A DNA stretch of 64,000 nt, taken from contig NZ_JANLCM010000001.1 of NCBI RefSeq assembly GCF_024979235.1, forward strand, positions 682,001 to 746,000. Reading direction: 5' to 3'. The translations under genes were made by a program, and so were the position numbers. Within the stretch, counting starts at the first letter, position 1. Each line of letters opens with the position of its first letter. The notes below the pieces were generated by a model. That model saw only the letters and a program-made list of their open reading frames with translations, was not told the DNA's origin and did not search any database. This DNA comes from Herbiconiux aconitum. GTDB taxonomy: Bacteria; Actinomycetota; Actinomycetes; Actinomycetales; Microbacteriaceae. This document shows positions 11,959 to 34,156 of this stretch, one piece after another.

Positions 11959-12030
11959 CGGACTTCTCCAAGGCAAACGGCGAGCGCGCCGACAGGGCGT
12001 CGCGGTGCGGAGCACGTTTGGAGAAGTCCG
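11959..12030. repeat. Long inverted repeat at convergent gene ends, copy 1 (terminator-like)
   Basis: Perfect 13-bp arms, CGGACTTCTCCAA (11959-11971) and TTGGAGAAGTCCG (12018-12030), enclose 46 bp. With a 3-base bulge the stem extends outward through GCCGCG/CGCGGC to both stop codons. It lies exactly between two convergent genes, so it probably works as a bidirectional terminator. The same arm sequence recurs at 19257 and 34087. Confidence 0.85.
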
Positions 12031-12036
12031 GCGCGG

Positions 12037-13098
12037 CTAGCGCCAGGGGTCGATCAGCACCTTGCCGTCGAGCTTGCCCTGCACGAGCCGCTCGAGCTGC
12101 TCACCGAGTTCGTCGAGCGCCACCACGTTCTCGAGCAGCTCCGGCCCCACCACACCCTCGGCGAGGATGGCGAGCGCGGGCCGCAGATCGGAGTCGCAGA
12201 CGTGGGCCAGCGAGGAGTCGATCGTGATCTCGCGGAACACCAGGGAGTGCACATCGAGTTCGGGCTTGGCCTTCGGCAGCCCCACGGCCAGCACACGACC
12301 GCCGTCGCGCACGAGCGACACGGCCGTGGCGAGTTGCCCTGGCGCTCCGCTGGCCTCGATCACCACGTCGGGTCGGGCGCCGTCGAACGCATCCACCACC
12401 TCCGCCGCCAGATCGGGGCCGGGGCTCAGCACCGCCGAGGCGCCGAAGCGCAGCGCGCGATCCTGCTTCGGTCCGGCGAACTCCACCACGAGCACCTCGG
12501 CATCGACCAGGTGCTTGAGCCCGGCGAGCACGAACGACGCGATCGCTCCTCCCCCGATGATCACCACCCGGTCGCCGTCGACCGCACCCGAGCGCCGGGC
12601 GGCGTGGATGCCCACGGCCAGCGGCTGCGCGAGAGCGGCGTGGTCGTCGGACAGGCCCGCCGGAATCGGCGCCAGGTTGCGCGCCGGCGTCGACACGTAG
12701 CCGGCCATCCCGCCATCGGTGCTGAGACCGTAGGTGTAGTAGCGCTCGCACATGTTGGTGCGACCCTCGAGGCAGCGTTTGCACTCGCCGCACCAGACAC
12801 CGGCGCCGCTCGCCACACGATCGCCGGGGCGGAAGCCGCTCTCGTCATCGGCGGACACCACCTCGCCGACGAACTCGTGACCCAGGATCATCGGTCCGAG
12901 GTGACCGGTGACCCGGTGCGCCACGGCCACCGGGAAGACCTTGGGGCCCACGGCCCACTCGGTCGCGTCGGTGCCGCAGAGCCCCGACCGGGTCACCCGG
13001 ATGAGCACCTCCCCCGGCGCACGCGACGGCATCGGAACGCGGCCGACCCGGATGTCGTGGTCGCCGTGGTAGACGGCTGCACGCATGTTCTCGCTCAT
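12037..13098 (-). CDS. Zinc-dependent alcohol/polyol dehydrogenase (MDR family)
   Basis: The 353-residue medium-chain dehydrogenase has a catalytic-zinc region (GLCGTDATEW, then GHEFVGEV). The structural-zinc cysteines are complete (WCGECKRCLEGRTNMC), and a Rossmann fold follows (VIIGGGAIAS). The acidic VVEF end of the second strand favours NAD. Relatives oxidise secondary alcohols such as 2,3-butanediol, threonine or sugar alcohols. It is the last gene of an importer operon: its ATG overlaps the stop of the fused ABC transporter by 4 bp, so the imported compound is probably its substrate. An inverted repeat follows its stop. Confidence 0.85.
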   Translation of the reverse strand: MSENMRAAVYHGDHDIRVGRVPMPSRAPGEVLIRVTRSGLCGTDATEWAVGPKVFPVAVAHRVTGHLGPMILGHEFVGEVVSADDESGFRPGDRVASGAGVWCGECKRCLEGRTNMCERYYTYGLSTDGGMAGYVSTPARNLAPIPAGLSDDHAALAQPLAVGIHAARRSGAVDGDRVVIIGGGAIASFVLAGLKHLVDAEVLVVEFAGPKQDRALRFGASAVLSPGPDLAAEVVDAFDGARPDVVIEASGAPGQLATAVSLVRDGGRVLAVGLPKAKPELDVHSLVFREITIDSSLAHVCDSDLRPALAILAEGVVGPELLENVVALDELGEQLERLVQGKLDGKVLIDPWR

Positions 13099-15605
13099 AC
13101 GAGGGTCTTCCTGCGGCGGCGCGCGATCGAGTAGAAGATGGCGGCGACCAGGATCAGCACACCCTGGAAGATGTACTGCCACATCTGCGACAGCCCCAGG
13201 AAGGTGGTGGCGTTCAGCACCTGGATGATGAGGATCGACCCGAACAGACTGCCGATGAACGTTCCGCGGCCACCGAGCAGAGAGGTTCCGCCGAGCACCA
13301 CCGCAGTGATGCTGGAGAGCGTGTAGCTCACACCCTGCGCGGGGTCGCCGACGCCGATCTGCGTCATCAGCACCATCGCGCCGAGGAACACGAGCACCGA
13401 AGTGGTGGCGTAGGCGAGCACGACGGTCTTGTTGACGTTGACGCCGATGCGCCGAGCCGCTTCCTCGTCGGACCCGGTCGCCCGCAGCCGCCAGCCCCAG
13501 CGGCGCTTGCGCAGCAGCAGTTCGAGCGCCACGGCCAGCAGCACGAGCACGATGAAGACGACCGGGATCGGGCCGACCCGCGTGGTCATCACCGCGGTGA
13601 ACCCGGCCGCGATGTAGCCGCCAGGCGAGTCCCGCAGCAGGAAGCTGAGCCCCTGCAGGGCGATGTACAGCGTCAGGGTCGCGGCGATGGCCGTGAACTT
13701 GCCGAAGCGGATCAGCGATCCGTTGATCAACCCGGTGGCTATCGCGAGCACGAACATCAGCAGGATGCCGAGCCCCACCACCCCGAAAGGCTTGTCGTCG
13801 TTCACGAAGAACGACCCGACCACCACCAGGAACCCGGCCAACGGCCCCACCGACAGGTCGATGCCGCCGATCAGCAACGAGATGGTCTGGCCGAGGGCGA
13901 TGAAGCCCAGCGCCGAAACCAGCATCAGCACCGAGAAGATGTTGAAGTCGGAGAGATAGCGCGCGTTCTGGCTGAAGATGAAAGCGCCGAGCAGCACGAT
14001 CACACCGACGAGCAACGCGGAGGGCGCGCAGTCGCCCTGCACGAAGCGGCGGAACGGCGTCGAGCGCACGATCTTGTCGGTCGTGGCGAGCGGCGTGTTC
14101 GCGGTGTGCGCGGTCGAGGTCACGGCCGCCTGCACGATCCGTGACTCCGTGATGCCGTCGCCGAGCAGGGTGTCGACCGCGTTGCCGCGCGACATCACGA
14201 TCACCTGGTCGCAGAGCCCTTCGAGCTCCTTCGCATCCGAGGAGGCGACGACCACCGGGATGCCCGAGGCCGAGACCTCGCGCAGGATCTTGTAGATCTC
14301 GAGGCGGGCGCCGACATCCACACCCTGGGTGGGCTCGTCGGCGATCACGAGCGACGGCTCGGAGAGCAGGGCGCGAGCCATCACGACCTTCTGCTGGTTT
14401 CCGCCGGAGAGGGAGGAGACGACCGAATCCATCGACGCCGCCTTCACGCTGAGGGAGTCGAGGGTGCCACCCACCGTCTCGACCTCGCGTGTGTGGCTGA
14501 GCAGTGCCCAGCGCTTGAAGCGTTTGAGGGCTGCGACCGCCGCGTTCTCGCGCACGGTGAGCGACATCATCAGTCCCTCGGAGTGGCGGTCGGCCGGCAT
14601 GTAGGCCGCCTTCTCGAGCAGGGAGGACGAATTCGACTCCCGGCCGTTCACCACCACCCGACCGCTGAAGGGCTGCAGGCCCGCGAGTGCGCGCAGCAAC
14701 TCGCTCTGCCCGTTGCCGACCACGCCCGCGATGCCGAGGATCTCGCCCCGTTTCACAGCGGCGGAGACCTCGGTGAAGCCGTCTCCCGTGAGCCCGTCGA
14801 CGACGAGGTTGATCTCGTCGGCATCCGTCGCCTCGTATTTCGGCGGGAAGGTCGACTCCATCTGACGACCGACGATCATCGTGAGCAACTCGTCGTCGGA
14901 GACGTCGTCGACGTTCGCGACACCGCGGAGTTTGCCGTCACGAAGAACGGTGACGCGGTCGGCCAGCTGCCGCACCTCCGCCATCCGGTGTGTGATGTAG
15001 ACCACCGCGGTGCCGCGGGCGACGGCGGCCCGCACACGGGCGAAGAGCAGGTCGACCGAATCCTGGCCGAGCGGCGCCGTCGGCTCGTCGAGCACCAGCA
15101 CCTTCGGCTCAAGCGCGAGCGCCTTCGTGATCTCGAGCAGGTGCTTCTGCGCCACCGTGAGCGTCTCGACACGATCACCGAGGTGCACCCGGAGTCCGGA
15201 TTCGCCGAGGATCGTCGACGCGTACTGTTCGAGCGAACCCTTGCCCTCGAACACCGAGGCGGGCAGGGCCACCCGCAGGTTCTCGAGCACCGTCATGTCG
15301 GGCAGCACGGCCGGATGCTGATGCACGATCGCGATGCCGAGCTTGGCCGCGAGGGCGGGGCTCAGCGTCTCGATCGGCTCTCCGTTCACCCGGATGGTGC
15401 CGCCGTCGGGCTGCACGGTTCCGGATGCGACGTTCATCAGCGTCGACTTGCCTGCGCCGTTCTCACCGAGCAACGCGTGCACCTCACCGGGCAGCACGTC
15501 GAGCGACACGTCGGTGAGTGCCGCGACCCCGGAATACGACTTCGAGATCCCGGTGAGGGAGAGCACGGCGACGGAGGTGTCGACGTCTTCGAGTTGTGTG
15601 TCCAC
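13095..15605 (-). CDS. Ribose-type ABC importer: ATPase and permease fused in one chain
   Basis: This 836-residue protein joins what are normally two subunits. Residues about 12-505 are a double-ATPase RbsA-type protein: NBD1 has a Walker A GENGAGKST at 47-55 and VLVLDEPTAPLG. NBD2 has the usual degenerate Walker A (GVVGNGQSE) but an intact LSGGNQQK signature and VIADEPTQGVD. Residues about 530-830 are a complete RbsC-type permease with several membrane spans (SLLIGGIDLSVG, LGGTSLLGGRGT). It should import a sugar or polyol delivered by the binding protein encoded upstream. The start is a GTG with AAAGG 8 bases upstream. A separate permease gene in the same operon (16948-17958) suggests a heteromeric channel. 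Confidence 0.9.
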   Translation of the reverse strand: MDTQLEDVDTSVAVLSLTGISKSYSGVAALTDVSLDVLPGEVHALLGENGAGKSTLMNVASGTVQPDGGTIRVNGEPIETLSPALAAKLGIAIVHQHPAVLPDMTVLENLRVALPASVFEGKGSLEQYASTILGESGLRVHLGDRVETLTVAQKHLLEITKALALEPKVLVLDEPTAPLGQDSVDLLFARVRAAVARGTAVVYITHRMAEVRQLADRVTVLRDGKLRGVANVDDVSDDELLTMIVGRQMESTFPPKYEATDADEINLVVDGLTGDGFTEVSAAVKRGEILGIAGVVGNGQSELLRALAGLQPFSGRVVVNGRESNSSSLLEKAAYMPADRHSEGLMMSLTVRENAAVAALKRFKRWALLSHTREVETVGGTLDSLSVKAASMDSVVSSLSGGNQQKVVMARALLSEPSLVIADEPTQGVDVGARLEIYKILREVSASGIPVVVASSDAKELEGLCDQVIVMSRGNAVDTLLGDGITESRIVQAAVTSTAHTANTPLATTDKIVRSTPFRRFVQGDCAPSALLVGVIVLLGAFIFSQNARYLSDFNIFSVLMLVSALGFIALGQTISLLIGGIDLSVGPLAGFLVVVGSFFVNDDKPFGVVGLGILLMFVLAIATGLINGSLIRFGKFTAIAATLTLYIALQGLSFLLRDSPGGYIAAGFTAVMTTRVGPIPVVFIVLVLLAVALELLLRKRRWGWRLRATGSDEEAARRIGVNVNKTVVLAYATTSVLVFLGAMVLMTQIGVGDPAQGVSYTLSSITAVVLGGTSLLGGRGTFIGSLFGSILIIQVLNATTFLGLSQMWQYIFQGVLILVAAIFYSIARRRRKTLV

Positions 15606-15714
15606 TGAGTTTGCCTTTGATCCTTGACGACTGATCGGTGACGACTGATCGACGACTTCCGTCGAGCCGGCCTCCCACCTGGTGGGCCGGCCCGACGGCT
15701 GTCGGTCGGGGTGG
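15606..15714. other. Operon spacer with direct repeat and hairpin
   Basis: The gap between binding-protein stop and transporter start holds a 13-bp direct repeat, TGACGACTGATCG, at 15625-15637 and 15639-15651. It also holds a bulged hairpin at 15666-15691 with arms GCCGG/CCGGC and an inner CCCAC/GTGGG. A hairpin here commonly stabilises or partly terminates the binding-protein message, so that the binding protein is made in excess. That role is inferred. Confidence 0.55.
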
Positions 15715-16824
15715 TTACTTCAGGAGTGCTGCTTGATCTTCAGGAGACATCTCCGCCGAGAGGAAGATGTCGCCGGGCAGATCGTCGCGGCACTCGACCG
15801 GGTTCGGCGTGCCGGACACCGAGTCCTCGAACACCGGGGCGTCGAAGGTGGTGGTGTCGGGCAGCGTGCCGCCGGTGGCCTTCGCCACCGCGTACTGCAC
15901 CGCGAGGCGCACGTTGTCGTTACCGGTGGCGACCGTCATCATCTTGAAGTCGGGGTTCGCCGCCTCGTTGTCCTTCCAGAAGCAGCCGAGCACGTTGCCG
16001 TCGGAGGTGACGAGAGCCGGGATCGACCGGCCGCTCTTCGTGAACTCCGGCAGTGCGCCGACCAGCGACGGACCGAAGTCCGAGACGATCACGTCGATCT
16101 GCGGGTTCTTCGCGATGGCGCTCGTGAGCACCTGCTGGGTGACCGCGGGGTCCCAGTTGGTGGGCTCGAAGGGCTGCTCGCCGATGAACTTGTAGGAGTC
16201 ATCGCCGATCACCGTCTTCATGCCGGCCAGCTCGTCTTCGCCCTGGCTGTTGCCCTTGGGGCCCGAGAGGAAGAGGATGTTGGCTCCGTCGGGGAAGTTG
16301 GTCTTGATCCAGTCGCCCCAGTTCTTGCCGTCGGTGGTGAAGTCGGCGCCGATCCAGGCGTCGTAGTCCACGCCGTCCTTGCCGCCCGGGTTGACCCGGT
16401 AGGGAACGGTGACGACGCCGGCCTGGAAGGCCGAGCGCAGAGCGGGAAGCATGGCCTCGCCCGCATCCGGGAAGACGACGAGGGCGTTGACGCCCTTCGC
16501 GACCATGCCCTGGATGTCGGCGATCGACTTCTGGGTGTCGCCCTGACCATCCGCGTATTCGTAGCCGGTGACGCTCGGGCACTTGGCGACCTCGTCGGCG
16601 CCGGCCGCGGTGGTGATCTTGCGCCAGCTGTTGCCGCCGAAGCCGTCGAGGAGGCCCAGAGTGATCTCGTTCGGTCCGCACCAGTCGGGCGCGCCGGCGA
16701 CCGGAGCACCGGTCTCCGATCCGCCACCGTTCGACGACGGGGCGCCACTGCTACAGGCCGTCAGTGCGATAGCCGCGACACCGACGACCGCAGCCATCGT
16801 CGCGATTCTCTTTCGGATTACCAT
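15715..16824 (-). CDS. Sugar-type ABC substrate-binding lipoprotein
   Basis: The 369-residue protein has a lipoprotein signal with lipobox LTAC (Cys24), a Ser/Gly-rich tether, and a periplasmic-binding-protein type 1 (ribose/LacI-like) fold. Typical segments are GLLDGFGGNSWRK and IQGMVAKGVNALVVFPDAG. It would capture the substrate outside the membrane for the fused transporter (13095-15605) and the permease at 16948. The ATG at 16824 is preferred because the basic signal start MVIRKR follows immediately and a GAGAGGAAA ribosome site precedes it. The ligand cannot be read from sequence; the downstream alcohol dehydrogenase suggests a polyol or sugar. Confidence 0.88.
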   Translation of the reverse strand: MVIRKRIATMAAVVGVAAIALTACSSGAPSSNGGGSETGAPVAGAPDWCGPNEITLGLLDGFGGNSWRKITTAAGADEVAKCPSVTGYEYADGQGDTQKSIADIQGMVAKGVNALVVFPDAGEAMLPALRSAFQAGVVTVPYRVNPGGKDGVDYDAWIGADFTTDGKNWGDWIKTNFPDGANILFLSGPKGNSQGEDELAGMKTVIGDDSYKFIGEQPFEPTNWDPAVTQQVLTSAIAKNPQIDVIVSDFGPSLVGALPEFTKSGRSIPALVTSDGNVLGCFWKDNEAANPDFKMMTVATGNDNVRLAVQYAVAKATGGTLPDTTTFDAPVFEDSVSGTPNPVECRDDLPGDIFLSAEMSPEDQAALLK

Positions 16825-16947
16825 CTCTTGGTTTCCTCTCACATCGAGCGGCGCCTCTGCCGCTGTCATTTTCGACGTCCTCGTCGAAGTTTCGGGTGGA
16901 TATGTGATCCGGACGGATCGGGTGCGGGTGAAGGGAGCGCAGCGGCC

Positions 16948-17958
16948 TCAGGCCGGTGCCTTCACCCGTGGGCGGAACAACCGGGCTCGTAGGGCGGCCC
17001 AGTTGATCGTGTACATGCCGACGCCGACGGCGAGGGCAGCGGCCTGAACGATCGAGCGCACCGCGTAGGGCACGCCGACGGCCAGGACGAACTGGTCGAG
17101 CTGGCTGAGGAACAGCGCAGCGACGATGGTGGCGAGGGGGTAGCCCCGGCCACCGAGCAGGGAGGTTCCGGCGAGCACCACGACCGCGACACCGGGAATG
17201 AGGTAGGTGTTGCCCTGGAACGCGGTGGGCTGCGCGGTGATGCCCGCAAGCAGGATGCCGGCGAGGCAGTAGAGCAGCTGCGCCCAGACGTAGGCGGCGC
17301 TCTGGTGCACCCGCACCCGGAGGCCCGTGGCCCGAGCGGCGACCGGGTTCGCGCCGATCGCCTCGAAGCGGCGGCCGGCCACGGTCTTCTTCAGCAGGAT
17401 CGTGAGGATGAGGAACGCGCCGACCGCGAAGAACACCGAGTTCGGGATGCCGAAGGTGAGTCCGCCGGCGATGCTCTGCAGGAGGCGGGTGGTGGTGGTC
17501 GGGCTTCCGCCGGAGATGCCGATCACGACCGCGAACAGCAGGGCGTTCGTGCCGAGCGTCGCGATGATGGCGTTGAGCTTCAACCAGCCGACCAGGATGC
17601 CGTTCAGCACGCCCGCGAGCACCGCGAGCAGCACGGCCAGCAGGATCGCGGGCAGGAGCACCGAGTTGTCGCCGTTCGGCACCTTGCTGACCACCACGAT
17701 GGCGAGCGACACGGCGCCGGGGATCGAGAGGTCGATGCCGCCCTGCTGCACGACCAGCATCTGGCCGAGACCGACGCAGGCGAGGATGGAGGCGAAGGGC
17801 AGCATCCCGAGCACCGCCCCCTGCGACACGCTCGAAGGGGCGAGGATCGCACTCAGCACGAAGAGCACCACGACGGCGATTCCCACGGTCAGGAGACCAC
17901 GCGATATCGTCCATCGGGAACTCTTCAGTCCCGGTTCATGCCGCACCGTTGCGCTCAT
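16948..17958 (-). CDS. Ribose-type ABC importer permease
   Basis: The 336-residue membrane protein has about eight to ten hydrophobic segments and the RbsC signatures LVVQQGGIDLSIPG and LAGTSLLGGRGYPL. It is first in the operon permease - binding protein - fused ATPase/permease - alcohol dehydrogenase. Since the third gene already carries a permease domain, the membrane channel is probably a heterodimer of the two. GGAGAG lies 2-7 bases upstream of the ATG. The promoter region is shared with the divergent SDR gene at 18166. Confidence 0.9.
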   Translation of the reverse strand: MSATVRHEPGLKSSRWTISRGLLTVGIAVVVLFVLSAILAPSSVSQGAVLGMLPFASILACVGLGQMLVVQQGGIDLSIPGAVSLAIVVVSKVPNGDNSVLLPAILLAVLLAVLAGVLNGILVGWLKLNAIIATLGTNALLFAVVIGISGGSPTTTTRLLQSIAGGLTFGIPNSVFFAVGAFLILTILLKKTVAGRRFEAIGANPVAARATGLRVRVHQSAAYVWAQLLYCLAGILLAGITAQPTAFQGNTYLIPGVAVVVLAGTSLLGGRGYPLATIVAALFLSQLDQFVLAVGVPYAVRSIVQAAALAVGVGMYTINWAALRARLFRPRVKAPA

Positions 17959-18165
17959 GCTCTCTCCATGATCAATCGAGGGTCTTCGTCGAACTCATCG
18001 TTGAGTATAGCTTTACAGAAGGGCCGTAGTGTTCACAACAACTTTCGGTAACGATTCCGGAAAATCGCGAATCTCGCGGAATCCCGGCAAATATCGCTGG
18101 CCGCCGGGACAAACCGTACAGCTGCTGTGTACATTTATTGTGAACAGCACGAGGAAGGCACACAC
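17959..18165. promoter_or_regulatory. Divergent promoter region with paired TGTTCACAA sites
   Basis: The AT-rich 207-bp gap separates the importer operon from the SDR gene. It holds TGTTCACAACAA at 18030-18041 and its mirror copy TTATTGTGAACA at 18135-18146. They share a perfect 9-bp core (TGTTCACAA), one copy near each start. This layout suggests one regulator controlling both transcription units. The regulator is not identified. Confidence 0.6.
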
Positions 18166-19251
18166 ATGTCAACAGACGACGCTCAACGACGAGCACTGGT
18201 CATCGGAGCGACGGGGATCGCGGGGCAGTCGCTCTGCCGTGCGCTCCTGAACGAAGGTTTCCAGACGTACGGACTCTCCCGCAGCGCGAACGCCCCGGTG
18301 GAGGGCGTCATCCCGCTGGCCGCCGATCTGCTCGACCCCGCGAGCCTGGCGACGGCCGTCGCCGGCGTGCAACCGCAGCTGGTGTTCATCACCGCCTGGA
18401 TGCGTCAGGACAGCGAGAGCGAGAACATCCGGGTGAACAGCGCCATCGTGCGCAACACCCTCGACGCGGTGACCGCGGGCGGCCACGGATCAGTCGAACA
18501 CGTCGCGCTGCTCACAGGCCTCAAGCACTACCTCGGCCCCTTCGACGACTACGCGACCGGCGTCATGGCCGACACCCCCTTCCACGAAGAGGAGCCGCGG
18601 CTGTCGACCCCCAACTTCTACTACGCGCAGGAGGACGAGCTCTTCGCCGCAGCGGAACGCGACAACTTCACCTGGAGCGTGCACCGCGCGCACACCGTCT
18701 TCGGCTACGCGGTGGGCAACGCGATGAACATGGCGCTGACCCTCTCGGTCTACGCCACGATCTGCAAGCGCACGGGCGAGGTGTTCCGCTTCCCCGGCTC
18801 CGAGATGCAGTGGAACGGCGTCACCGACGTCACCGATTCCGACCTGCTCGCCGAGCAGCTGGTGTGGGCGGCCACGCATGCGGAGGGGCGCAACGAGGCC
18901 TTCAACATCGCGAACGGCGACGTGTTCCGCTGGCGCTGGCTCTGGCCGCGCATCGCGGAGAAGTTCGGCGTGGAGTGGGCCGGGTTCGACGGTTCGCCGG
19001 CTCCCCTGGCGTCGCGGATGGATCACGCCGCGGCCGAGTGGACCGCCATCGCCGCCGAGAACTCACTGGTCGAGGCCGACGTCAACCGGCTCGCGAGCTG
19101 GTGGCACACCGACGGCGACCTCGGCCGCAACCTCGAGTGCTTCACAAGCATGGACAAGAGCCGGCTGGCCGGCTTCCAGGGCTTCCGCTCGACGCCGGAG
19201 TCGTTCTTCGACAAGGTCGACCGCTACCGCGAGGCGCGCATCATCCCCTGA
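18166..19251 (+). CDS. SDR-family NAD(P)-dependent oxidoreductase, PRISE-like (enone reductase type)
   Basis: The 361-residue extended SDR has the nucleotide motif GATGIAG at residues 14-20. Instead of the classical YxxxK it has NFYYAQEDEL near 150-159, typical of the progesterone 5-beta-reductase/iridoid-synthase-like (PRISE) group. Those enzymes reduce activated C=C bonds with NADPH, and many bacterial members have unknown substrates. The tryptophan-rich tail (WRWLWPRIAEKFG) also fits. An AGGAAGG ribosome site supports the ATG at 18166. It is divergent from the importer operon and shares its TGTTCACAA sites, so it may act on the imported compound or a derivative. Confidence 0.78.
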   Translation: MSTDDAQRRALVIGATGIAGQSLCRALLNEGFQTYGLSRSANAPVEGVIPLAADLLDPASLATAVAGVQPQLVFITAWMRQDSESENIRVNSAIVRNTLDAVTAGGHGSVEHVALLTGLKHYLGPFDDYATGVMADTPFHEEEPRLSTPNFYYAQEDELFAAAERDNFTWSVHRAHTVFGYAVGNAMNMALTLSVYATICKRTGEVFRFPGSEMQWNGVTDVTDSDLLAEQLVWAATHAEGRNEAFNIANGDVFRWRWLWPRIAEKFGVEWAGFDGSPAPLASRMDHAAAEWTAIAAENSLVEADVNRLASWWHTDGDLGRNLECFTSMDKSRLAGFQGFRSTPESFFDKVDRYREARIIP

Positions 19252-19256: not shown

Positions 19257-19326
19257 GGACTTCTCCAATCCTCGCGGTGACCGGGCCCGAAGAGAGCGCC
19301 GGTCGCCGCGAGGATTGGAGTTCTCC
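19257..19326. repeat. Long inverted repeat at convergent gene ends, copy 2 (terminator-like)
   Basis: Arms of 28 bp (19257-19284 and 19299-19326) match at 24 positions and enclose a 14-base loop. The left arm starts GGACTTCTCCAATCC and the right arm ends ATTGGAGTTCTCC. It fills the 78-bp gap between the convergent SDR and alcohol dehydrogenase genes. Length and outer sequence match the copies at 11959 and 34087, while the inner stem differs. Confidence 0.85.
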
Positions 19327-26851: not shown

Positions 26852-26916
26852 GGTTGCAGTACTCCTTTGGGGCGGGGTGGTCACGAAGTCCGAGCCGGTC
26901 GACAGATCCTGGATGG

Positions 26917-27705
26917 TCAAACGAGCACCATCCCGCCGTCGATCATGATCACCTGGGCGGTGAGGTAGTCGGAGTCGGAGGAGGCCAGGTAGAGGGTGGT
27001 GCCCATGATGTCGGCGACCTGGGCGGTGCGGCCGCGGATGATTCCGGCGCCGTATTCGTTCATCGCCTCGCCGGCCTGCTTGGTCTCGCCGATCGCGAGC
27101 AGATCTTCGTCGAGCTTGATCCAGAGCGGGGTGTCGACGATGCCGGGGGCGAAGGCGTTCACCGTGATGTCGTGCTCGGCGAGGGCCTTCGCGGCCGACT
27201 GGGTGAGCGAGATGACGGCCGCTTTCGACGCCGAGTAGGGGGCGAAGGCCGGGAAGCCCTGCCGGCCCGCCATCGACGAGGTGTTGATGATCTTGCCGCC
27301 GCCACCCTGCGCGATGAACTGCTTCGCCGCCTCCTGCATGCCGATCAGCGTGCCGAGCGCGTTGACCTCCATGATGGCGCGCCAGTTGTCTTCGGTGACG
27401 TCGAGGAATTGCAGCGGGGCGTTGAACCCGGCGTTGTTGAACCAGACGTCGATGCGACCGAAGGCCTGCACGGCCTGTTCCACGACGTTCCTCACGTCGT
27501 CGCGCACCGAGACATCCGAACGCACACCGATCGCACGGGAGCCCGATTGCTCGATCGACGCCGCAGCTGCCGCCGCGGCATCCGCGTTCAGATCGGCGAT
27601 CACGACCGACGCGCCTTCGCCCGCGAGCGTCGTCGCGATTCCGAGGCCCATGCCGCTGGCGCCTCCGGTGACGACGACCACTCTGCCGCTCATACGATTC
27701 GCCAT
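26917..27705 (-). CDS. Classical SDR oxidoreductase
   Basis: The 262-residue protein is a classical SDR: TGGASGMGLGIA for the coenzyme, IADLN (Asp, NAD preference), NNAG, a catalytic Ser in NTSSMAG and YSASK as the Tyr-Lys pair, then PGIVDT. It would oxidise a secondary alcohol. It is first in the operon SDR - M24 - beta-hydroxyacid dehydrogenase. An AAAGGAAC ribosome site precedes the ATG at 27705; an internal ATG at 27693 is possible. Upstream is a perfect TGAACATGTTCA palindrome. Confidence 0.9.
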   Translation of the reverse strand: MANRMSGRVVVVTGGASGMGLGIATTLAGEGASVVIADLNADAAAAAAASIEQSGSRAIGVRSDVSVRDDVRNVVEQAVQAFGRIDVWFNNAGFNAPLQFLDVTEDNWRAIMEVNALGTLIGMQEAAKQFIAQGGGGKIINTSSMAGRQGFPAFAPYSASKAAVISLTQSAAKALAEHDITVNAFAPGIVDTPLWIKLDEDLLAIGETKQAGEAMNEYGAGIIRGRTAQVADIMGTTLYLASSDSDYLTAQVIMIDGGMVLV

Positions 27706-28017
27706 TGATTCGTTCCTTTCGTGCAGGCCTCACCGCTCGCGTCGTCGCCGAGCTCTGCGAGTCAGTTGAACATGTTCAGTCTAGCTTGTCAATGTGTTCA
27801 GCATAACAACACACCGGCTGATCCAAATTGAGACAGAAGGGCGAATCCATGCGGATGTTGGGAAACAACCGACTGCAGTGGGGCTGTAGCATACAATCGA
27901 GCCCACGGGGGCAAGGTCGCCTCCTCGTATACCCATGCTGCACAGGCCATTCATGGCGACGGCTCTCGCGGCTCCTGAGCAAGGAGAAAAATCATCACCG
28001 GTGACATCGGACCCCGG
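27706..28017. promoter_or_regulatory. Divergent intergenic region with TGAACATGTTCA palindrome
   Basis: I see no gene in this 312-bp gap. It contains a perfect 12-bp palindrome TGAACATGTTCA (27767-27778) and a further TGTTCA (27795-27800), both closest to the SDR operon. AT-rich promoter-like sequence runs to about 27900. At the right end is a strong ribosome site, AAGGAG (27981-27986), followed by ATC codons in the frame of the XRE-cupin gene and no ATG, GTG or TTG before 28018. Confidence 0.6.
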
Positions 28018-28800
28018 TTGCGCGCAGCGCGAATCGCCCGGGGAATCAGCCTTCGTAGCGTCGCATCAGCACTCGGTGTCTCGGCGAGTCTCATCTCCCA
28101 GGTCGAGACCGGCAAGACCCAGCCCTCCGTGAGCACGCTCTACGCGCTGGTCAACCACCTCGGCATCTCCTTCGACGACCTGCTGAGCGGGTCGGATGCG
28201 CCGGGTCCCGGCGTGGTCGGCGGCTCGGGCGGGGCGCGGGGCACCGCCGGCGGGTCGGAAGGGCGCTCGGCCACGGTCGCCGGTTCCGGGTCGGGATCGG
28301 CCTCGGGCGACGGCGGCGACGTGCACCCGCTCCTCGGCGGCGACGCCGGCGTGGGCGGGATGCCCGGACTCCTGCAGCGAGGCTCCGAGAACCCTGTGCT
28401 CGAGATGGAGAACGGGGTGCGGTGGGAGCGCCTGGCCGCGAGCCGTGACGGGTCGGTCGATCCGCTGCTCGTCACTTACGACCCCGGGGCTTCCAGCTCG
28501 ATCGAGGGTCGCATGATGCGCCACAGCGGAGTCGAGTACGCCTACCTGCTGTCGGGGGAGCTCACCGTGCGCCTCGATTTCGACACCTTCACGCTGCATC
28601 CGGGCGACTCGCTCAGCTTCGACTCGGTTCGGCCTCACATGTACATCAACCAGGGCACCGTGCCGGCCAAAGGCCTCTGGTTCGTGGTGGGGCGCCGCGA
28701 ATTCTCGCAGGAGATGCCCGAATCCGGGCATCCGGAGCGCAACGCCAGCGGACTCACCTCCGCGGTCGACGTGCTGCAGGCGATGGACCGCCTGGCCTGA
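28018..28800 (+). CDS. XRE-family regulator with C-terminal cupin domain
   Basis: An HTH_3 domain (RLRAARIARGISLRSVASAL ... SLISQVETGKTQPSVSTLYAL) is joined to a cupin (EYAYLLSGELTVRLDF, LHPGDSLSF, RPHMYIN) by an unusually long Gly/Ser-rich linker of about 60 residues. The cupin senses a small molecule. Start choice is odd: the family N-terminus begins before the TTG at 28018, and residues ITGDIGPR are encoded upstream in frame. The AAGGAG site at 27981-27986 is spaced for an ATC at 27991 or 27994. Coordinates give the first conventional start (TTG); I think initiation at an AUC codon is likely. The divergent SDR operon or the E1-E2 genes are possible targets. Confidence 0.82.
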   Translation: MRAARIARGISLRSVASALGVSASLISQVETGKTQPSVSTLYALVNHLGISFDDLLSGSDAPGPGVVGGSGGARGTAGGSEGRSATVAGSGSGSASGDGGDVHPLLGGDAGVGGMPGLLQRGSENPVLEMENGVRWERLAASRDGSVDPLLVTYDPGASSSIEGRMMRHSGVEYAYLLSGELTVRLDFDTFTLHPGDSLSFDSVRPHMYINQGTVPAKGLWFVVGRREFSQEMPESGHPERNASGLTSAVDVLQAMDRLA

Positions 28801-28845
28801 CGCAGCCGCGGCGGGTCGCCCGGTCGCTCGCTCGTTCGCTGACGC

Positions 28846-30459
28846 TCAGAGCAGGATGCTCAGCGGGTTCTCGATGCGCTTCGTGAACGCCGCGAGCCAC
28901 TGGGCGGCGAGCGCGCCGTCGACGGCACGGTGATCGACCGAGAGCGTGCAGCGCATCACGGTGGCCACGGCGAGTTCGCCGTCGATCACGACCGCCTGCT
29001 GCTTCGCCGCGCCGACCGCGAGGATGCCCGACTGCGGCGGGTTCAGGATCGCCGAGAACTCGACCGTGCCGTACATGCCGAGGTTCGAGACCGAGAAGCT
29101 GCCGCCCTCGAGTTCGTCTTGCTTCAGTCGCTTGTCTTTCGCCTTGGCCACGAGCTCCTGGATGGTCGAGCTCACCGCGGTGAGGCTCTTCGAGTCGACG
29201 CCGCGCACCACCGGTGTGAGGAGGCCGCCGTCGGTCGCGACCGCCACGGCGATGTCGACCGCGTGGTGCTTGCGCATCCCCTCGTCAGACCACGTGACGT
29301 TCGCCTCAGGCACCTCGGCGAATGCCGCAGCGACGGCTTTCACCACGAAGTCGTTCACCGAGACGCGCACCGGTGATTGGGCGTTGACCTCGGCGCGCAG
29401 CGCGAGCAGAGCGTCGACCCGGGGCTCGGCGGTGAGGTAGAAGTGCGGCACCGTCGACTTGCTCTCGGTGAGCCGACGCGCGATGGCGCGGCGCATCCCG
29501 GTGTGCGGGATGAGGTCCCAGTCGCCGGTGGTGGCCGTGGATGCGGCGCTCGCGGGCGCGGGTGCGGCCGGCGCAGCAGGTACTCCGGAGGCGGCGGGGC
29601 TCGCGGACGCGGACGCCGGGGAGGCCGGTGCAGCGGCGGTCACGCTTCCGGAGGCGAGCGCCTCCTCGACGTCGCGGCGCACGATGCGGCCGCCGGGGCC
29701 GGAGCCCGCGATGGTGGCCGGGTCGAGTCCCCGCTCCCGCGCGAGCTTGCGGGCGATCGGGCTCACGAACAAGCGATCACCGGATGCGTCACCCACGCGG
29801 CTCGCGGAGGTGCCACCGGGCGCGGTGCCGGATGCGTCACCCTCGCCGGATGGGTCACCCTGGCCGGATGCGGCCCCCTGGCCGGATGCGACGGGCGCGG
29901 ACCCGGTGGTCGTCGCGGTCGCTGAGGCGGACGCTGCCGGGTCGAGGGTGTCGGCGGCCGACGCGGCCTGCGCCACCGATGCGGCCTCGGCCACGGGCGC
30001 GCCGGACTCCGGGTCGCGCGCCGAGGCGCCCGACTCAGGTTCCACGGTGCCAGCCGCACCGGCGGGGGCCGAGAGCGCGGAAGCGCCGGAGGCGGTGGGT
30101 GACGCAGCAGGGGTGGCCGGCGCATCCGTCGTTGCCTCCGAAGCCGTGTCGGCCGCAGCGGCAGCAGCCGGCGCAGCAGGCGACCCACCGAGGGCGGCAT
30201 CGATGTCGGCGGCGGTCTCGCCCTCGGCGATCAGCACTGCGATCGGGGCACCGATCTCGCCCGATTCGCCGGCCGCGAGCAGCACGCGCCCCACGATCCC
30301 GGCTTCTTCGGCGTTGTACTCCACGATGGCCTTCTCGGTCTCGATCTCGGCGAGCGGTTCGCCGACAGCGATGACCTGACCCTCCGTCACGAGCCAGTTG
30401 GCGATCGCCGCTTCTTCGGAGCCCGCGAGAACGCTGGGCATCCGGATGATCTGGGCCAT
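28846..30459 (-). CDS. 2-oxoacid dehydrogenase complex E2 (dihydrolipoamide acyltransferase)
   Basis: The 537-residue protein has one N-terminal lipoyl domain with lipoylated Lys43 in EIETEKAIVE. A roughly 150-residue Ala/Ser/Gly/Pro linker follows, then a peripheral-subunit-binding domain (VSPIARKLARERGLDPATI) and a catalytic CoA-acyltransferase domain with the His/Asp motif DHRAVDGALAAQW. It forms the core of a complex that converts a 2-oxoacid to acyl-CoA. The linker is exceptionally long and contains GQGAASGQGDPSGEGD-like repeats. Its ATG is 1 bp from the stop of the E1 gene, so it is co-translated with it. No E3 gene lies in the window. Confidence 0.93.
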   Translation of the reverse strand: MAQIIRMPSVLAGSEEAAIANWLVTEGQVIAVGEPLAEIETEKAIVEYNAEEAGIVGRVLLAAGESGEIGAPIAVLIAEGETAADIDAALGGSPAAPAAAAAADTASEATTDAPATPAASPTASGASALSAPAGAAGTVEPESGASARDPESGAPVAEAASVAQAASAADTLDPAASASATATTTGSAPVASGQGAASGQGDPSGEGDASGTAPGGTSASRVGDASGDRLFVSPIARKLARERGLDPATIAGSGPGGRIVRRDVEEALASGSVTAAAPASPASASASPAASGVPAAPAAPAPASAASTATTGDWDLIPHTGMRRAIARRLTESKSTVPHFYLTAEPRVDALLALRAEVNAQSPVRVSVNDFVVKAVAAAFAEVPEANVTWSDEGMRKHHAVDIAVAVATDGGLLTPVVRGVDSKSLTAVSSTIQELVAKAKDKRLKQDELEGGSFSVSNLGMYGTVEFSAILNPPQSGILAVGAAKQQAVVIDGELAVATVMRCTLSVDHRAVDGALAAQWLAAFTKRIENPLSILL

Positions 30460-30460
30460 C

Positions 30461-32674
30461 TCAGGCCCCCTTCCGAGCAGCAGCAGCCGACGCGCCGCCG
30501 AACCCGGCGCGCACGCGTTCGAGCCCCGCGACGACCTCATCGGCCCGCGCGATCGCAGCCCGCTCGAGCACCTTCGAGATGCTCGGCGACGCCTCAGACC
30601 CGGTCACCCGTTGCACCGGCTGGTCGAGCCAGTCGAAGTAGCGGCGCTGGATCTCGTCGGCCAGCCACGCTCCATACGAGGTGCCTTGCGCACCTTGCTC
30701 CACGATCAGCACCGCGTTGGTCTTCTCGATGCTCCGGCCGATGGTGTCCCAGTCGATCGAGGCGCGGTCGAGGAAGCGCAGGTCGATCAGCTCGGCGTCG
30801 ATGCCGGCCTGCTCGATCGCGCGAGCGCTTTCTCCCACCATCGAGAGGTAGCTGATGACGGTCACGTCCGACCCTTCGCGACGCACGGCCGCCTTGCCGA
30901 ACGGGATCTGGTAGTCCAGGTCTTCCGGAATCGAACCCGACTCGGCATAGAGGTCGACGTGCTCGATCATCAGCACCGGGTCGTCGATCGCGAGCGCCGC
31001 GTTCATCAGTCCGATGTAGTCGTAGGGCGTGGAGGCGGCCATGATGCGCCAGCCGGGGCTGGTGGCGAAGATGCCCGCCGGGTCCATCAGGTGCTGCGAG
31101 CCGTAGCCCGAGCCCATCGCGATCTTGGTGCGCAGCACCAGTGGCACGGCGTTGTCGCCGCCGAACATGTGCCGGGCCTTGCCGATCTGGTTGAACACCT
31201 GGTCGGCCGCCACCCACATGAAGTCGGGGTACATGAACTCCACCACCGGGCGGAAGCGGGTGTCGAGGGCGATGCCGCCGCCCAACCCCGCGAAGGCGTT
31301 CTCGCTGATCGGGGTGCCGAGCACACGGCCCGGATACTTCTCGGCCAGGCCCTTGGTGGCGCCGTTCGTGCCCCCCTTCAGGCGATGGATGTCTTCGCCG
31401 AGTACCACGATCCGCTCGTCTTCACCCATCCGGCGGTCCATCACGGCCGCAACGGCGTCGACGAACTTGCCCTGGGCCGACTCGCCGGCGTAGGCATCCT
31501 GTTCCTGGGTGCGCGCATCCTGAATCTCGGAGAGGTCGCCCCGGATGCCCACGTCGACGAACCCGGGGTCGGGCCAGAGATCGGGGCGGATGCGTCGAAC
31601 GCCCGCCTTGCCCTCGGGGTCGGCTTCGGTGAGTTCGGCGGAGGCCCGGCGCACGGCGTCCTGCGCCTGGGCACGCACAGCGGCCACGCCCTCGTCGTCG
31701 ATGAGCCCCAGCGCGGTCATCTCCTTGGCCACCCGCAGCAGCGGGTCGCGGGCGCGCCATTCGGCCTCCTCCTCCTTGGAGCGGTAGCCGAAGGCGCTGC
31801 CCGGGTAGGGGCCGTTCTGGTGGAAGTAGCGGTAGACCTCGGCTTCGATGACGGCGGGGCCGTCGCCGGCGCGCATCCGCTCGGTCGCCTTCTCCATGGC
31901 CAGGTGCACGGCCAGCGGGTCCATTCCGTCGACGCGCCAGGCCGGGATGTTGAAGCCGAGGGCGCGTGCGGACAGGCGCGGCTCGGCGGTGACCTCGTCG
32001 ACCTTCGTCGACACGGCGTAGAGGTTGTTCTCGATGAAGAAGCAGAACGGCAGCTTCCAGGCCGCGGCGAGGTTCATGCTCTCGAGCACCGAGCCGATGT
32101 TGGTGGCGCCGTCGCCGAAGTAGCTCACCGTGAGGTCGGTGGTGCCGGCGTGCTTCTGGGCCCAGGCGTTGCCGGCTCCGAGCGGCACGCCACCGCCGAC
32201 GATGGCATTGGTGCCGAGCGCGCCGGCCTCGAACCACTGCAGGTGCATCGAACCGCCGCGGCCACGGCAGTAGCCCTGGGCGAGGCCGAGGATCTCGGCG
32301 AGGGTGCGCTGCAGCACCGTCTGCACGGCGGGAGTCACCAGAGCGGCGAGGTCGAGGCCGTCGGGCGCGACGTGGGCGAGGGCCTTGGCGAGGAACTGGT
32401 GGTGACCGCGGTGCGATCCGTTCACCCCGTCGCTGGAGCGCAGCGCCACGATCGAGCCGACCGCCCCGCCCTCCTGGCCGATCGACGAGTGTGCGGGGCC
32501 GTGCACGAGGCCGGCGCCGGCGAGGTCGAGCACCTCCTCTTCGAAGGCGCGGATCAGGTGGAGCTGCCCGAGCATGGTCGACAGGAGCGCCGGATCGGCG
32601 TTCTTCCAGTCGCTGGGTGTGGTGCGCAGCTCGACCCAACTCGATCCAGGCTGCAGACGTTTCTCGCGGGGCAT
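30461..32674 (-). CDS. 2-oxoacid dehydrogenase E1, alpha and beta subunits fused
   Basis: The 737-residue protein contains E1-alpha (residues about 30-370; thiamine-diphosphate motif GDGATNIGSVLESMNLAAAW ending in ENN) and E1-beta (about 395-725; GEDIHRLKGGTNGATKGL, then TPISENAFAGLGGGIA). With the E2 gene it makes a pyruvate/acetoin/branched-chain-type complex. HSSIGQEGGAVG and RGRGGSMHL are typical of the acetoin/2-oxoacid E1 group. It is first in the E1-E2 operon and divergent from a VOC gene. Palindromic half-sites (AATGTATCCA) lie in the shared promoter, and an FCD-GntR gene is two genes away. AAAGGAG precedes the ATG. Confidence 0.92.
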   Translation of the reverse strand: MPREKRLQPGSSWVELRTTPSDWKNADPALLSTMLGQLHLIRAFEEEVLDLAGAGLVHGPAHSSIGQEGGAVGSIVALRSSDGVNGSHRGHHQFLAKALAHVAPDGLDLAALVTPAVQTVLQRTLAEILGLAQGYCRGRGGSMHLQWFEAGALGTNAIVGGGVPLGAGNAWAQKHAGTTDLTVSYFGDGATNIGSVLESMNLAAAWKLPFCFFIENNLYAVSTKVDEVTAEPRLSARALGFNIPAWRVDGMDPLAVHLAMEKATERMRAGDGPAVIEAEVYRYFHQNGPYPGSAFGYRSKEEEAEWRARDPLLRVAKEMTALGLIDDEGVAAVRAQAQDAVRRASAELTEADPEGKAGVRRIRPDLWPDPGFVDVGIRGDLSEIQDARTQEQDAYAGESAQGKFVDAVAAVMDRRMGEDERIVVLGEDIHRLKGGTNGATKGLAEKYPGRVLGTPISENAFAGLGGGIALDTRFRPVVEFMYPDFMWVAADQVFNQIGKARHMFGGDNAVPLVLRTKIAMGSGYGSQHLMDPAGIFATSPGWRIMAASTPYDYIGLMNAALAIDDPVLMIEHVDLYAESGSIPEDLDYQIPFGKAAVRREGSDVTVISYLSMVGESARAIEQAGIDAELIDLRFLDRASIDWDTIGRSIEKTNAVLIVEQGAQGTSYGAWLADEIQRRYFDWLDQPVQRVTGSEASPSISKVLERAAIARADEVVAGLERVRAGFGGASAAAARKGA

Positions 32675-32730
32675 TCCACTTTCTCCTTTGCAAGTGAGAG
32701 ATGCGCTCTCGAGAGTCAGAGTACGCGGTG

Positions 32731-32794
32731 AATGTATCCATTACAAGCCTTTCCTTCGTCCTTATGGTCTTGTATCGTTTTGTTTGGATACATT
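32731..32794. promoter_or_regulatory. Paired AATGTATCCA operator sites in a divergent promoter
   Basis: AATGTATCCA (32731-32740) and its exact mirror TGGATACATT (32785-32794) lie in the AT-rich gap between the E1-E2 operon and the VOC-GntR genes, one near each start. TGTATNCA-type sequences are usual for FCD-GntR regulators, and such a gene is encoded just downstream (33395). Binding is inferred. Confidence 0.65.
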
Positions 32795-32812
32795 GATGCT
32801 TGGAGGTCGAGG

Positions 32813-33343
32813 ATGCCACTACCTGGATTGCGCGGCGCCGAGCACATCGGCTTCACCGTCCCCGACCTCGACGAAGCGCACCGCTTCTTCGTCGACGTGA
32901 TCGGGTGCGACTTCGTGTATTCGCTGCCCGCCATGCGGCGCGACGAGGGGGACGACTGGATGCGCGAGCACCTGAACGTCGATCCGCGGAGCGTCGTGAA
33001 CGAGATCCGGTTCTACCGCTGCGGATTCGGGCCCAACTTCGAGGTGTTCGAATACGCTCCGACCCCCTCGCAACGCCCCGAGCCGCTCAACAGCGACATC
33101 GGAGGGCATCACATCGCGTTCTACGTCGACGATCTGAATGCCGCGGTCGACCACCTGCGGGAGTCGGGCATCCGGGTGCTCGGAGATCCGACCGCGAGTC
33201 GCAACGCCTCGGAGGGGCAGCGCTGGGTCTACTTCCTCAGCCCTTGGGGCATGCAGTTCGAGCTGGTGAGCTACCCCGCGGGCAAGGCGTACGAGCGAGA
33301 TGCGCCGGTGGTGCTGTGGCATCCGGCGCGGCCGGCGGAGTGA
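32813..33343 (+). CDS. VOC-family protein (dioxygenase/lactoylglutathione lyase-like)
   Basis: The 176-residue protein has two VOC modules: RGAEHIGFTVPDLDEAHRFF and DIGGHHIAFYVDDLNAAVDH. It closes with PWGMQFELVSYPAGKAYE, giving metal-ligand His, His and Glu. The long insertion (MRRDEGDDWMREHLNVDPRS) is seen in members acting on larger substrates. The reaction is unknown. TGGAGGTCGAGG supports the ATG at 32813. It is followed 51 bp on by an FCD-GntR regulator in the same direction and is divergent from the 2-oxoacid dehydrogenase operon, with shared operator-like sites. Confidence 0.85.
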   Translation: MPLPGLRGAEHIGFTVPDLDEAHRFFVDVIGCDFVYSLPAMRRDEGDDWMREHLNVDPRSVVNEIRFYRCGFGPNFEVFEYAPTPSQRPEPLNSDIGGHHIAFYVDDLNAAVDHLRESGIRVLGDPTASRNASEGQRWVYFLSPWGMQFELVSYPAGKAYERDAPVVLWHPARPAE

Positions 33344-33394
33344 GCGGCCGCGATCGCGTCCGCCTCGTGCCGGGCCGCGAGTAGGATTCGACGG

Positions 33395-34081
33395 ATGACT
33401 GCCCTCAGCGACGCGGCGAACCCCGCCACCGCGGCGAACCCCGTGAACGTGGCGAGCCATCGCATCGCCGACAGCCTGCGGCACGAGATCCTGGGCGGGC
33501 AGCTCGCGCCCGGCACCCGCATCCGGCAAGAAGACCTCGCCGAGCGCTTCGGGGCGAGCCGCATCCCGGTGCGTGAGGCGATCCGGATGCTGCACGCCGA
33601 CGGTCTCATCACGATGGTGGCCAATTCGGGGGCCTGGGTCTCGCGGCTCACGCTCGCCGAGTGCGTGGAGGTGTACTCGATCCGGGAACGGCTCGAACCT
33701 CTGCTCCTGCGCATGAGCATGCCGAATCTCTCGGCCGAGACCATCGACCACCTCGACGCACTGGCCGACGGGATGGCGGCGAACACCGACGTCGACTATT
33801 TCGTGGAGCACGACCGCGAGCTGCACCTCTCGAGCTACTCGGGCGCGCCGCGGGGGGCGTTGTGGGACATCATCCACCGCCTCTGGAACACCACGCAGCA
33901 TTACCGGCGGGCCTACGCGACGCTCGTCGGCGTGGAGGGCATCGGGGTGACGCACATGGAGCACCACCTGCTGGTGGACTGCATCCGGCGCCAAGACCCG
34001 GATGACGCCGAACGGATGCTCGTCACCCACATCCGCCGCACCCGCCTCGAGCTCGAACGCCACCCCGAACTCTTCGCGTAG
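33395..34081 (+). CDS. GntR-family regulator, FCD subfamily
   Basis: The 228-residue protein has a winged-helix domain (RIRQEDLAERFGASRIPVRE at about residues 43-62). An FCD domain follows, with likely metal residues in DRELHLSSY, HMEHHLLVD and THIRRTR. FCD-GntR proteins typically respond to organic-acid catabolites and bind TNGTNNNACNA-like or TGTATNCA-like sites. The candidate operators are AATGTATCCA at 32731 and 32785, which would let it control VOC-GntR and E1-E2 together. The ATG at 33395 is preceded by an AGGATTCGACGG stretch. A long inverted repeat follows the gene. Confidence 0.87.
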   Translation: MTALSDAANPATAANPVNVASHRIADSLRHEILGGQLAPGTRIRQEDLAERFGASRIPVREAIRMLHADGLITMVANSGAWVSRLTLAECVEVYSIRERLEPLLLRMSMPNLSAETIDHLDALADGMAANTDVDYFVEHDRELHLSSYSGAPRGALWDIIHRLWNTTQHYRRAYATLVGVEGIGVTHMEHHLLVDCIRRQDPDDAERMLVTHIRRTRLELERHPELFA

Positions 34082-34086
34082 GCGCC

Positions 34087-34156
34087 GGAGTTCTCCAAAC
34101 GAGGCGCCTACCGCAGCCTCCAGTCGCTGAGGTCTCCACGACGATTGGAGTTGTCC
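34087..34156. repeat. Long inverted repeat at convergent gene ends, copy 3 (terminator-like)
   Basis: Outer arms GGAGTTCTCCAA (34087-34098) and TTGGAGTTGTCC (34145-34156) pair at 9 of 12 positions and span 70 bp, the same length as the copies at 11959 (72 bp) and 19257 (70 bp). The interior has its own GAGGC/GCCTC pairing. It lies between the convergent GntR and zinc-ribbon nuclease genes. Confidence 0.75.

Follow-up and report, generated by a model that had tools for sequence, protein, structure and literature searches.

Dispersed 70-bp palindromes in Herbiconiux and their association with a gene for a predicted Vsr/I-Bth0305I-like nuclease

The stretch analysed here, referred to as the window, comprises 64,000 nucleotides of the genome of Herbiconiux aconitum (G000; 4.16 Mb in 5 contigs) and corresponds to C1:682001-746000 of that genome (contig NZ_JANLCM010000001.1). 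It contains three copies of an inverted repeat, here called T1, which had been picked out in an initial annotation and are present as described there, with the quoted arms and nearly equal lengths:

11960-12029, no strand assigned: T1 copy 1, with arms at 11960-11971 and 12018-12029, both GGACTTCTCCAA, and a decayed interior; stop codons lie 4 bp away on the left and 7 bp away on the right
19257-19326, no strand assigned: T1 copy 2, with a near-perfect stem and arms that are unlike at positions 4-6 (CTT / GAA)
34087-34156, no strand assigned: T1 copy 3, with GTT / CAA in the arms and most of the interior unpaired; missing at the syntenic junction of G155

Each unit is 70 bp long. The 72 bp first given for copy 1 arose because a G next to the unit on its outward side is conserved, being kept in 102 of 120 T1 flanks. 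Matches to the arm with at most one mismatch occur 7 times in the window against 0.87 expected from shuffled sequence, and the 6 exact ones all lie within these three copies. The interiors had been called self-complementary, which holds for copy 2 (fold z −9.0) but much less for copy 1, where pairing is mainly through the arms (z −4.3), or for copy 3, which folds poorly (z −2.3, with 7 of 200 shuffles equal or better). No Rfam family was found in the window at the gathering threshold. Gene calls throughout are from our own codon-usage caller, not from the annotation; by these calls T1 occupies 3 of the 14 convergent junctions in the window and is lacking at the others, in agreement with the initial annotation.

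A whole-genome search with the arm pair recovers 39 T1 copies in G000, among them 26 exact arm pairs (24 of 70 bp and 2 of 69 bp); 37 copies have exactly 70 bp when up to three mismatches are allowed, and the reversed pattern gives 0 matches. All 47 exact half-sites fall within pairs of 69 or 70 bp; since exact arms never stand singly in G000, we rejected the possibility that T1 is a DNA uptake sequence placed in terminators. Among the half-sites with 1 mismatch, 5 of 30 fall outside known T1 copies. The restriction to convergent gene ends that was proposed from the window does not extend to the genome, where 22 of the 39 copies are convergent, 12 tandem, 2 divergent and 3 inside open reading frames (ORFs), but the enrichment behind it is strong. 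Among the 36 intergenic copies, 22 are convergent compared with 4.5 expected by base pairs (p=7e-12; p=1e-6 by junction count), and 2 are divergent compared with 15.4 expected (p=1e-6; p=0.009 by junction count). The background for these figures is 272 kb of G000, made up of the window together with 34 loci that surround T1 copies, and convergent junctions are over-represented in it because those loci were picked in this way. An equal spread over tandem gaps, divergent gaps and genes is therefore not what is seen; the convergent bias is real.

A second dispersed family, T2, has 73 bp, arms of the form GTTC(G/A)(A/G)AANCG and a T1-like core; its reversed pattern also gives 0 matches. The two families are unevenly distributed among 16 genomes of the genus. 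T1 has 37 copies in G000, 14 in G155, 4 in G152 (Herbiconiux ginsengi) and 2 each in G156 and G160, with 0 in the other 11, and copies with at most one arm mismatch are found in G000 and G155 only. T2 has 24 copies in G152, 24 in G158 (sp. KACC 21604), 18 in G162 (sp. A18JL235), 4 each in G153 and G161 and 2 in G000, with 0 in the other 10; copies with at most one mismatch are found in G152, G158, G162 and G161, and once in G000, within an ORF that is shared with G152 and that we take to encode a P-type ATPase. A search with the exact 70-bp T1 pattern over one genome per species (GTDB release 220, from which the window's own records may be omitted) returned only 'Corynebacterium-like bacterium B27', which is G155. 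Allowing two mismatches, T1 was seen in 1 of 150 genomes of the family, namely G000, and no exact T1 was found in viral contigs.

Both families share one placement rule, just beyond a stop codon: with all genomes pooled, the nearest stop codon is at most 31 bp away in 43 of 54 T1 and 50 of 61 T2 copies having one. A few copies are located within ORFs without closing the frame, four of T1 (3 in G000, 1 in G152) and four of T2 (1 in G000, 3 in G152), with two positions common to G000 and G152; at L033 a T2 of G152 is opposite a T1 of G000 at the same place in the gene. In-ORF T1 reads G-x-L-Q... and in-ORF T2 reads F-E-x-A-N..., and two of the three T1 copies inside ORFs of G000 have a length divisible by three (69 bp). 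The copies at L064 and L221 are near the start of the ORF, where the start codon was chosen by us.

L033:3001-3069, in-ORF palindrome, frame open throughout
L051:3001-3070, in-ORF palindrome, frame open throughout
L064:3001-3069, in-ORF palindrome, frame open throughout
L211:2230-2302, in-ORF palindrome, frame open throughout

The palindromes consist of near-fixed outer arms, a stem that covaries and a centre that is variable and often asymmetric. Our alignments cover 23 of the 24 T2 copies of G158 and 16 of the 18 of G162, and the table of 127 copies took in 3 of the 4 T1 copies of G152, 2 of the 4 T2 copies of G161 and 0 of the 4 of G153. Across 58 unique T1 copies, columns 13-26 form 68% Watson-Crick pairs in register and 24-34% when slid by 1-4 columns, and columns 16-24 covary (z 1.5-4.1); for T2 the in-register figure is 82% for columns 17-28, against 15-40% when slid, and columns 18-26 covary across 66 unique copies (z 2.6-6.4). 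These covariation statistics ignore kinship among the copies. The variable positions in the arms behave differently from the stem. Positions 4-6 of T1 do not covary clearly between left and right (z −0.3, 1.5 and 1.8), nor do positions 5-6, the main variable arm positions of T2 (z from −0.3 to 1.8 over both families), with T2 position 9 as the exception (z 3.1). With hardly any exceptions, T1 has C or G at position 4 and A or T at positions 5-6, and this restriction suggests a groove read by a protein. At the centre there is no symmetric pairing, and many T2 copies show a register shift of one or two bases. As RNA the hairpins would be very stable, with medians of −42.5 kcal/mol for T1 and −51.7 kcal/mol for T2. 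At L195:2111-2360 two adjacent T2 copies have identical arms and stems and unlike central 15 bases, and from this pair the centre evolves faster than the rest of the element; other close pairs (L050, L197) differ elsewhere.

Gain or loss of entire units can be read from junctions at which relatives have an empty site. From the 39 G000 copies we took 16, all lacking a known G152 counterpart, joined their flanks as queries against G152 and G155, and inspected 14 (all except L034 and L043). Ten lack the palindrome in G152 and/or G155, where the neighbouring genes meet directly, and copy 3 of the window (L039) is one of them. At the remaining four the palindrome is present, or the junction is rearranged or longer.

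L036, L039, L040, L042, L044, L048, L055, L056, L057 and L063: empty T1 sites

In G152 the left neighbour of copy 1 directly adjoins the right neighbour of copy 3 and no palindrome separates them; the 22-kb stretch bounded by these two copies (window 12030-34086) is absent from this position in G152. Two nearly identical T2 copies enclose a gene in G158, and the corresponding place in G162 holds a single copy and no gene. Genes between near-identical T2 copies are found at L192 (2587-3673), to be compared with L248, and at L193 (1601-3211), and the relatives keep one palindrome and no gene; the genes missing from relatives are a glyoxalase-like gene and one for a CWB2 cell-wall-binding protein. 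Recombination between palindromes may thus delete or add gene cassettes.

The two families also occupy the same places in different genomes. By comparison of flanks, T1 in G000 is opposite T2 in G152 at the same gene junction nine times:

L031, L035, L060, L061, L062 and L066: both flanks aligned up to the palindrome (6 of 9)
two junctions around gene X: the flank beyond X is syntenic (2 of 9)
L032: one good flank (1 of 9)

Two further pairs came from the empty-site comparison, L044/L265 and, inside one ORF, L033/L261. A tree of flanking genes joins G000 and G152 at 100/100 with G155 next to them, and G155 has T1 at 5 of the 9 junctions (at L035 by one flank only). It is therefore most likely, as far as these alignments and the tree can tell, that G152 is the lineage that switched and that it changed palindrome type in place. 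A simple evolution in place with a conserved core was rejected, since T1 and T2 cores at shared junctions are barely more similar than random ones.

The gene that accompanies these palindromes, gene X, is found at the end of the suf operon:

G000:C2:716653-717591, minus strand: gene X (X1), encoding 312 amino acids, between two palindromes downstream of sufT

An earlier candidate explanation of the palindrome pair at C2:716577/717644 as a flank of oriC, based on DnaA-box-like sequences nearby, was dropped because the site is the end of the suf operon around X. The junction downstream of sufT has a large hairpin in most of the 16 genomes, of differing type, and X is beside sufT in 12 of them; it is not there in G154, G011, G157 and G160. 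A palindrome lies upstream of X1 in 12 of 12 cases, and in 10 of 12 a second one, similar in type on visual inspection, lies downstream. Where X is lacking, the place is taken by other hairpins in G154, G011 and G157, genomes devoid of T1 and T2; those of G154 and G011 carry a T-tract, and G160 has two T1 copies with 3 mismatches each. In a 400-kb sample of G151, T3-like hairpins occur around X only.

The arm type of the palindromes follows the X allele and contradicts the tree of flanking genes. X is 73% identical between G000 and G155 and 80-82% identical between G152 and G158 or G162, compared with 55% between G152 and its sister G000. On the X tree the five palindrome types need 4 changes, which is the minimum. 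By the approximately unbiased (AU) test, the X tree rejects a grouping of G000 with G152 (p-AU 6e-7) and of G000 with G152 and G155 (p-AU 1e-5), and the flank-gene tree is incompatible with monophyly of the five T2 genomes (p-AU 1e-8).

From an AlphaFold2 model (44 homologues; mean pLDDT 93.8, pTM 0.89), X is predicted to be a protein of about 300 amino acids with an AbiEi-like N-terminus and a Vsr/I-Bth0305I-like (DUF559/MTES_1575) C-terminus. The modelled N-terminus matches an AbiEi antitoxin (E 2e-5). The modelled C-terminus matches the I-Bth0305I domain (3r3p; TM-score 0.75, E 1e-3) and 3hrl (0.75), and Vsr (1cw0) at 0.45, all scores by target length; X would accordingly share the nuclease-domain fold of the EDxHD/Vsr-like proteins. 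A profile search with X gave sequence-level matches to 3hrl and 3r3p as well. Residues E225, H232 and D241 are invariant in 44 X sequences, and from the name of the EDxHD family we take them to be the active site. In Pfam, X1 of G000 is above the cut-off for DUF559 and slightly below it for MTES_1575; PADLOC gave weak homing-endonuclease and AbiEi matches, and NCBIfam has no name for X. No relatives of X were confirmed in viral contigs, and a search of plasmids gave one distant relative.

The association is repeated away from sufT. In 400 kb of one G152 contig we found two more X paralogues, X2 and X3, each beside a palindrome of another type:

G152, match from 215656, stop ending at 216540: X2, with T7 on both sides
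window 46555-46622, no strand assigned: T7 palindrome of 68 bp with arms TTTCGGGAGGAG, which differ from the 16-base T7 half-site at 3 and 1 positions

The upstream T7 lies 15 bp beyond the gene preceding X2 and has 3 mismatches in each half-site; the downstream one lies 4 bp past the X2 stop and has 1 and 0. There are seven T7 copies in the G152 sequence examined and two in G000, and all nine are 68 bp although 45-90 were allowed; a stricter fixed-gap pattern gave no match, its gap probably being one base too long. X3 has a T8 palindrome upstream, and its neighbours presumably are rimM and trmD. G000 encodes a relative of X2 (P0125, 67% identity) and another paralogue (P0134, 48%).

Taken together, a mobile palindrome served by its own nuclease is the simplest account of the patchy copies, the empty sites, the copies within ORFs, the fixed length, the invariant arms, the difference in type and the concordance with X. 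We regard it as fairly probable that these are REPtron-like mobile palindromes, each family paired with its own Vsr/I-Bth0305I-like nuclease gene X; T1 would be one of several such non-autonomous families in Herbiconiux, each with a fixed length (70 bp for T1, apart from two copies of 69, 73 bp for T2 and 68 bp for T7). X likely recognises the palindrome arms, and by binding or cutting them it could move or convert the palindromes. A possible course of events is that a dimer of X reads both outer arms and cuts or nicks there, and that palindromes are subsequently placed, replaced or converted in trans through repair or copying, mostly just beyond stop codons, where insertion would be tolerated. 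In a lineage acquiring a new X allele the resident palindromes would change their arm type in place, the old palindrome being cleaved and repaired from a copy of the new type. More tentatively, and at somewhat less than even confidence, we propose the general form of this idea, a bacterial mobile repeat of a new class: that AbiEi-DUF559 proteins with a Vsr/EDxHD-like nuclease domain each maintain and spread their cognate palindromes of about 70 bp via the outer arms, and that a new allele converts the residents chromosome-wide, which would amount to homing by a dispersed repeat.

Several observations weigh against this account, and the exchange of arms in place is its weakest point. Over 22 T1/T2 pairs that each occupy one junction, the cores have a similarity of 0.688 compared with 0.666 for random pairs (616 of 20000 resamples), with three of the 22 above 0.8. 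Minority-type copies are worn, with 2, 2, 2 and 3 arm mismatches for T1 in G152 and 1 and 3 for T2 in G000, and intact arms are found in 26 of 39 T1 in G000, 0 of 4 T1 in G152 and 8 of 24 T2 in G152; the contrast is clear for G000 alone, because just 8 of the 24 G152 copies are intact, and the case that old-type copies decay is weak. One T2 copy in G000 has a single mismatch. For X of G151 and of G159 the only full palindrome is the upstream one; the end of the G151 gene is overlapped by a shorter hairpin, and the G159 sequence at that place is nearly the same. X3 has T8 on one side only, with one further copy of T8 (2 in total). The contig was chosen for P0012, a further G152 paralogue, which lies outside the half that was read. 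The shared type at sufT is partly hitchhiking, because X and the two palindromes are physically linked; the argument for action in trans comes from the 7 unlinked T1/T2 junctions and one clear switch, that of G152. The labels T1b, T3 and T4 come from visual comparison of the palindromes beside X, and these three types, like T8 and T9, were seen at few loci. The notion that no X beside sufT means no palindrome family is wrong in general: G154 has other families, and in its 400-kb sample no X relative was found. Lastly, the family name DUF559 implies nothing by itself, because DUF559 proteins are widespread.

Alternatively, X, with its AbiEi-like domain, could be a regulator, insulator or chromosome organiser that binds the palindromes and does not move them, sites coming and going by ordinary mutation; the arms would then be the operator of X and co-evolve with it for that reason. 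The conserved arm sequence, the lack of pairing at most variable arm positions (T2 position 9 excepted, z 3.1), the C/G and A/T variation at T1 positions 4-6, which looks like groove readout by a protein, and the tracking of X allele by arm type would all fit. Entire units of about 70 bp are, however, present or absent between close relatives, copies occur within open ORFs, a palindromic stem of 70 bp exceeds what a binding site needs, and point mutation can hardly have changed both arms at nine junctions in a single lineage, so that we consider this explanation unlikely. Less likely still are fast-evolving dedicated bidirectional terminators at 3' ends, with the link to X a coincidence of one locus. 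The placement just past stop codons, the very stable RNA hairpins and the T-tract hairpins at the same place in G154 and G011 argue for termination, and a terminator had been among the original suggestions. Yet T1 and T2 are not intrinsic terminators as judged by the U-tract (at least four T in the next 10 nt at 0 of 72 T1 and 1 of 84 T2 sense 3' ends), termination requires neither arms that are invariant genome-wide nor a fixed length, and the copies in divergent gaps and ORFs and the concordance with X alleles and with X2 and X3 would be left unexplained. Given where the hairpins sit, some termination would be a plausible side effect, but it does not explain the conserved arms.

A REP-like (repetitive extragenic palindromic) mobile palindrome is the best fit of the three options first suggested, given the dispersal, the empty sites, the in-ORF copies and a gene bordered by the repeats. 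The enzyme proposed with it did not hold up: the linked gene is DUF559/MTES_1575-like instead of a Y1 transposase, and PF01797, the family of the TnpA-REP enzyme, is found in 1 of the 16 genus genomes (G011, which has no T1 or T2), with 5 of 14 control genomes positive. Dispersed extragenic palindromes enriched between convergent genes are what the consulted part of PMC1525189 states for REPs, which speaks for a classical REP/RAYT (REP-associated tyrosine transposase) system or, similarly, a miniature inverted-repeat transposable element (MITE) of an ordinary insertion sequence. We nevertheless hold either to be very improbable. The Y1 transposase is absent from all genomes with T1 or T2 in the PF01797 search. 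Target-site duplications were not seen, with no excess of direct repeats in 60 T1 (maximum z 2.0, 200 tests) and a single outlier in 66 T2 (4 vs 0.6, z 3.6, 200 tests). Because all 47 exact half-sites of G000 are paired at 69 or 70 bp, no larger element with T1 ends, as a MITE parent would be, is seen in that genome, the one searched. Sites for a nucleoid protein or chromosome domain, unrelated to X, would account for conserved arms at dispersed positions, and such a site too had been suggested at the outset; we found nothing in specific support. T1 and T2 occur in a minority of genus genomes (T1 in 1 of 150 family genomes), their type differs between sister species and palindromes are linked to X paralogues, and we give this possibility next to no weight.

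Set beside known systems, the palindrome/nuclease pairing that we favour works like a REPtron without being a member of that family. In the excerpt of PMC8266576, REPtrons likewise consist of a gene bordered by palindromes, with dispersed cognate copies and co-evolution of enzyme and repeat; X1 and X2, and X3 on one side, are bordered in the same way. REPtrons use a HUH/Y1 enzyme, whereas here the protein is Vsr/EDxHD-like with an AbiEi-like domain, and unlike REPtrons G152 has at least three enzyme/palindrome pairs. REP palindromes are 20-40 bp with an unpaired GTAG or CGTC tag at one end, as given in part of PMC3733652; those described here have 68-73 bp and no tag, T1 ending in GGA..TCC and T2 in GTTC..GAAC. 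The pneumococcal SPRITE and other MITEs are also short, hairpin-forming and terminator-like (PMC10969869); in T1 and T2 no U-tract, target duplication or parent transposon was seen, and an endonuclease-like gene is linked. Rickettsia palindromic elements also have some copies within ORFs that stay open (PMC10969869). They are mostly in frame within ORFs, whereas 3 of 39 T1 copies are in ORFs and most others lie past stop codons, and we rejected membership on this ground. I-Bth0305I acts as a dimer on a target of nearly 60 bp, according to the part of PMC3943268 consulted, a length comparable to the arm-to-arm span of T1 and T2. Unlike an EDxHD homing endonuclease, X lies outside introns and beside a repeat family dispersed over the genome. 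Integron attC sites end in RYYYAAC and GTTRRRY motifs, and these are not at the T1 ends. In the open-access literature we found nothing that links DUF559 or a very-short-patch-repair endonuclease to palindromes, the matches looking unrelated, and no such repeats named in Microbacteriaceae.

Other repeats were noted in passing. A further family of palindromes, with CGAYCCGTCA arms, occurs in G154, G152 and G155:

L310:13459-13525, L311:5103-5191 and L316:5124-5210
G152:C4 at 52614, 82219 and 104045
L120:7880

Another repeat, roughly 60-120 bp long and likewise dispersed, is found close to some palindromes of both G155 and G000 (L018:1490-1613, compared with L030, L044, L052, L053, L054, L058 and L063), and at 4537-4583 of the window an operator-like interrupted repeat, TCTACGGTGTAGA...TCTACACCGTAGA, occupies a divergent gap.

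No enzyme is known for some families of REP-like palindromes; for the CGTC-tagged REPs, part of one survey indicates that a dedicated transposase seems to be lacking (PMC3733652). The natural difference between T1 and T2 in sister species of Herbiconiux offers a direct test of the match between enzyme and arms. If X is the enzyme of these palindromes, it would represent a second, HUH-independent route to REP-like repeats and would give a role to the widespread DUF559/AbiEi-type proteins.

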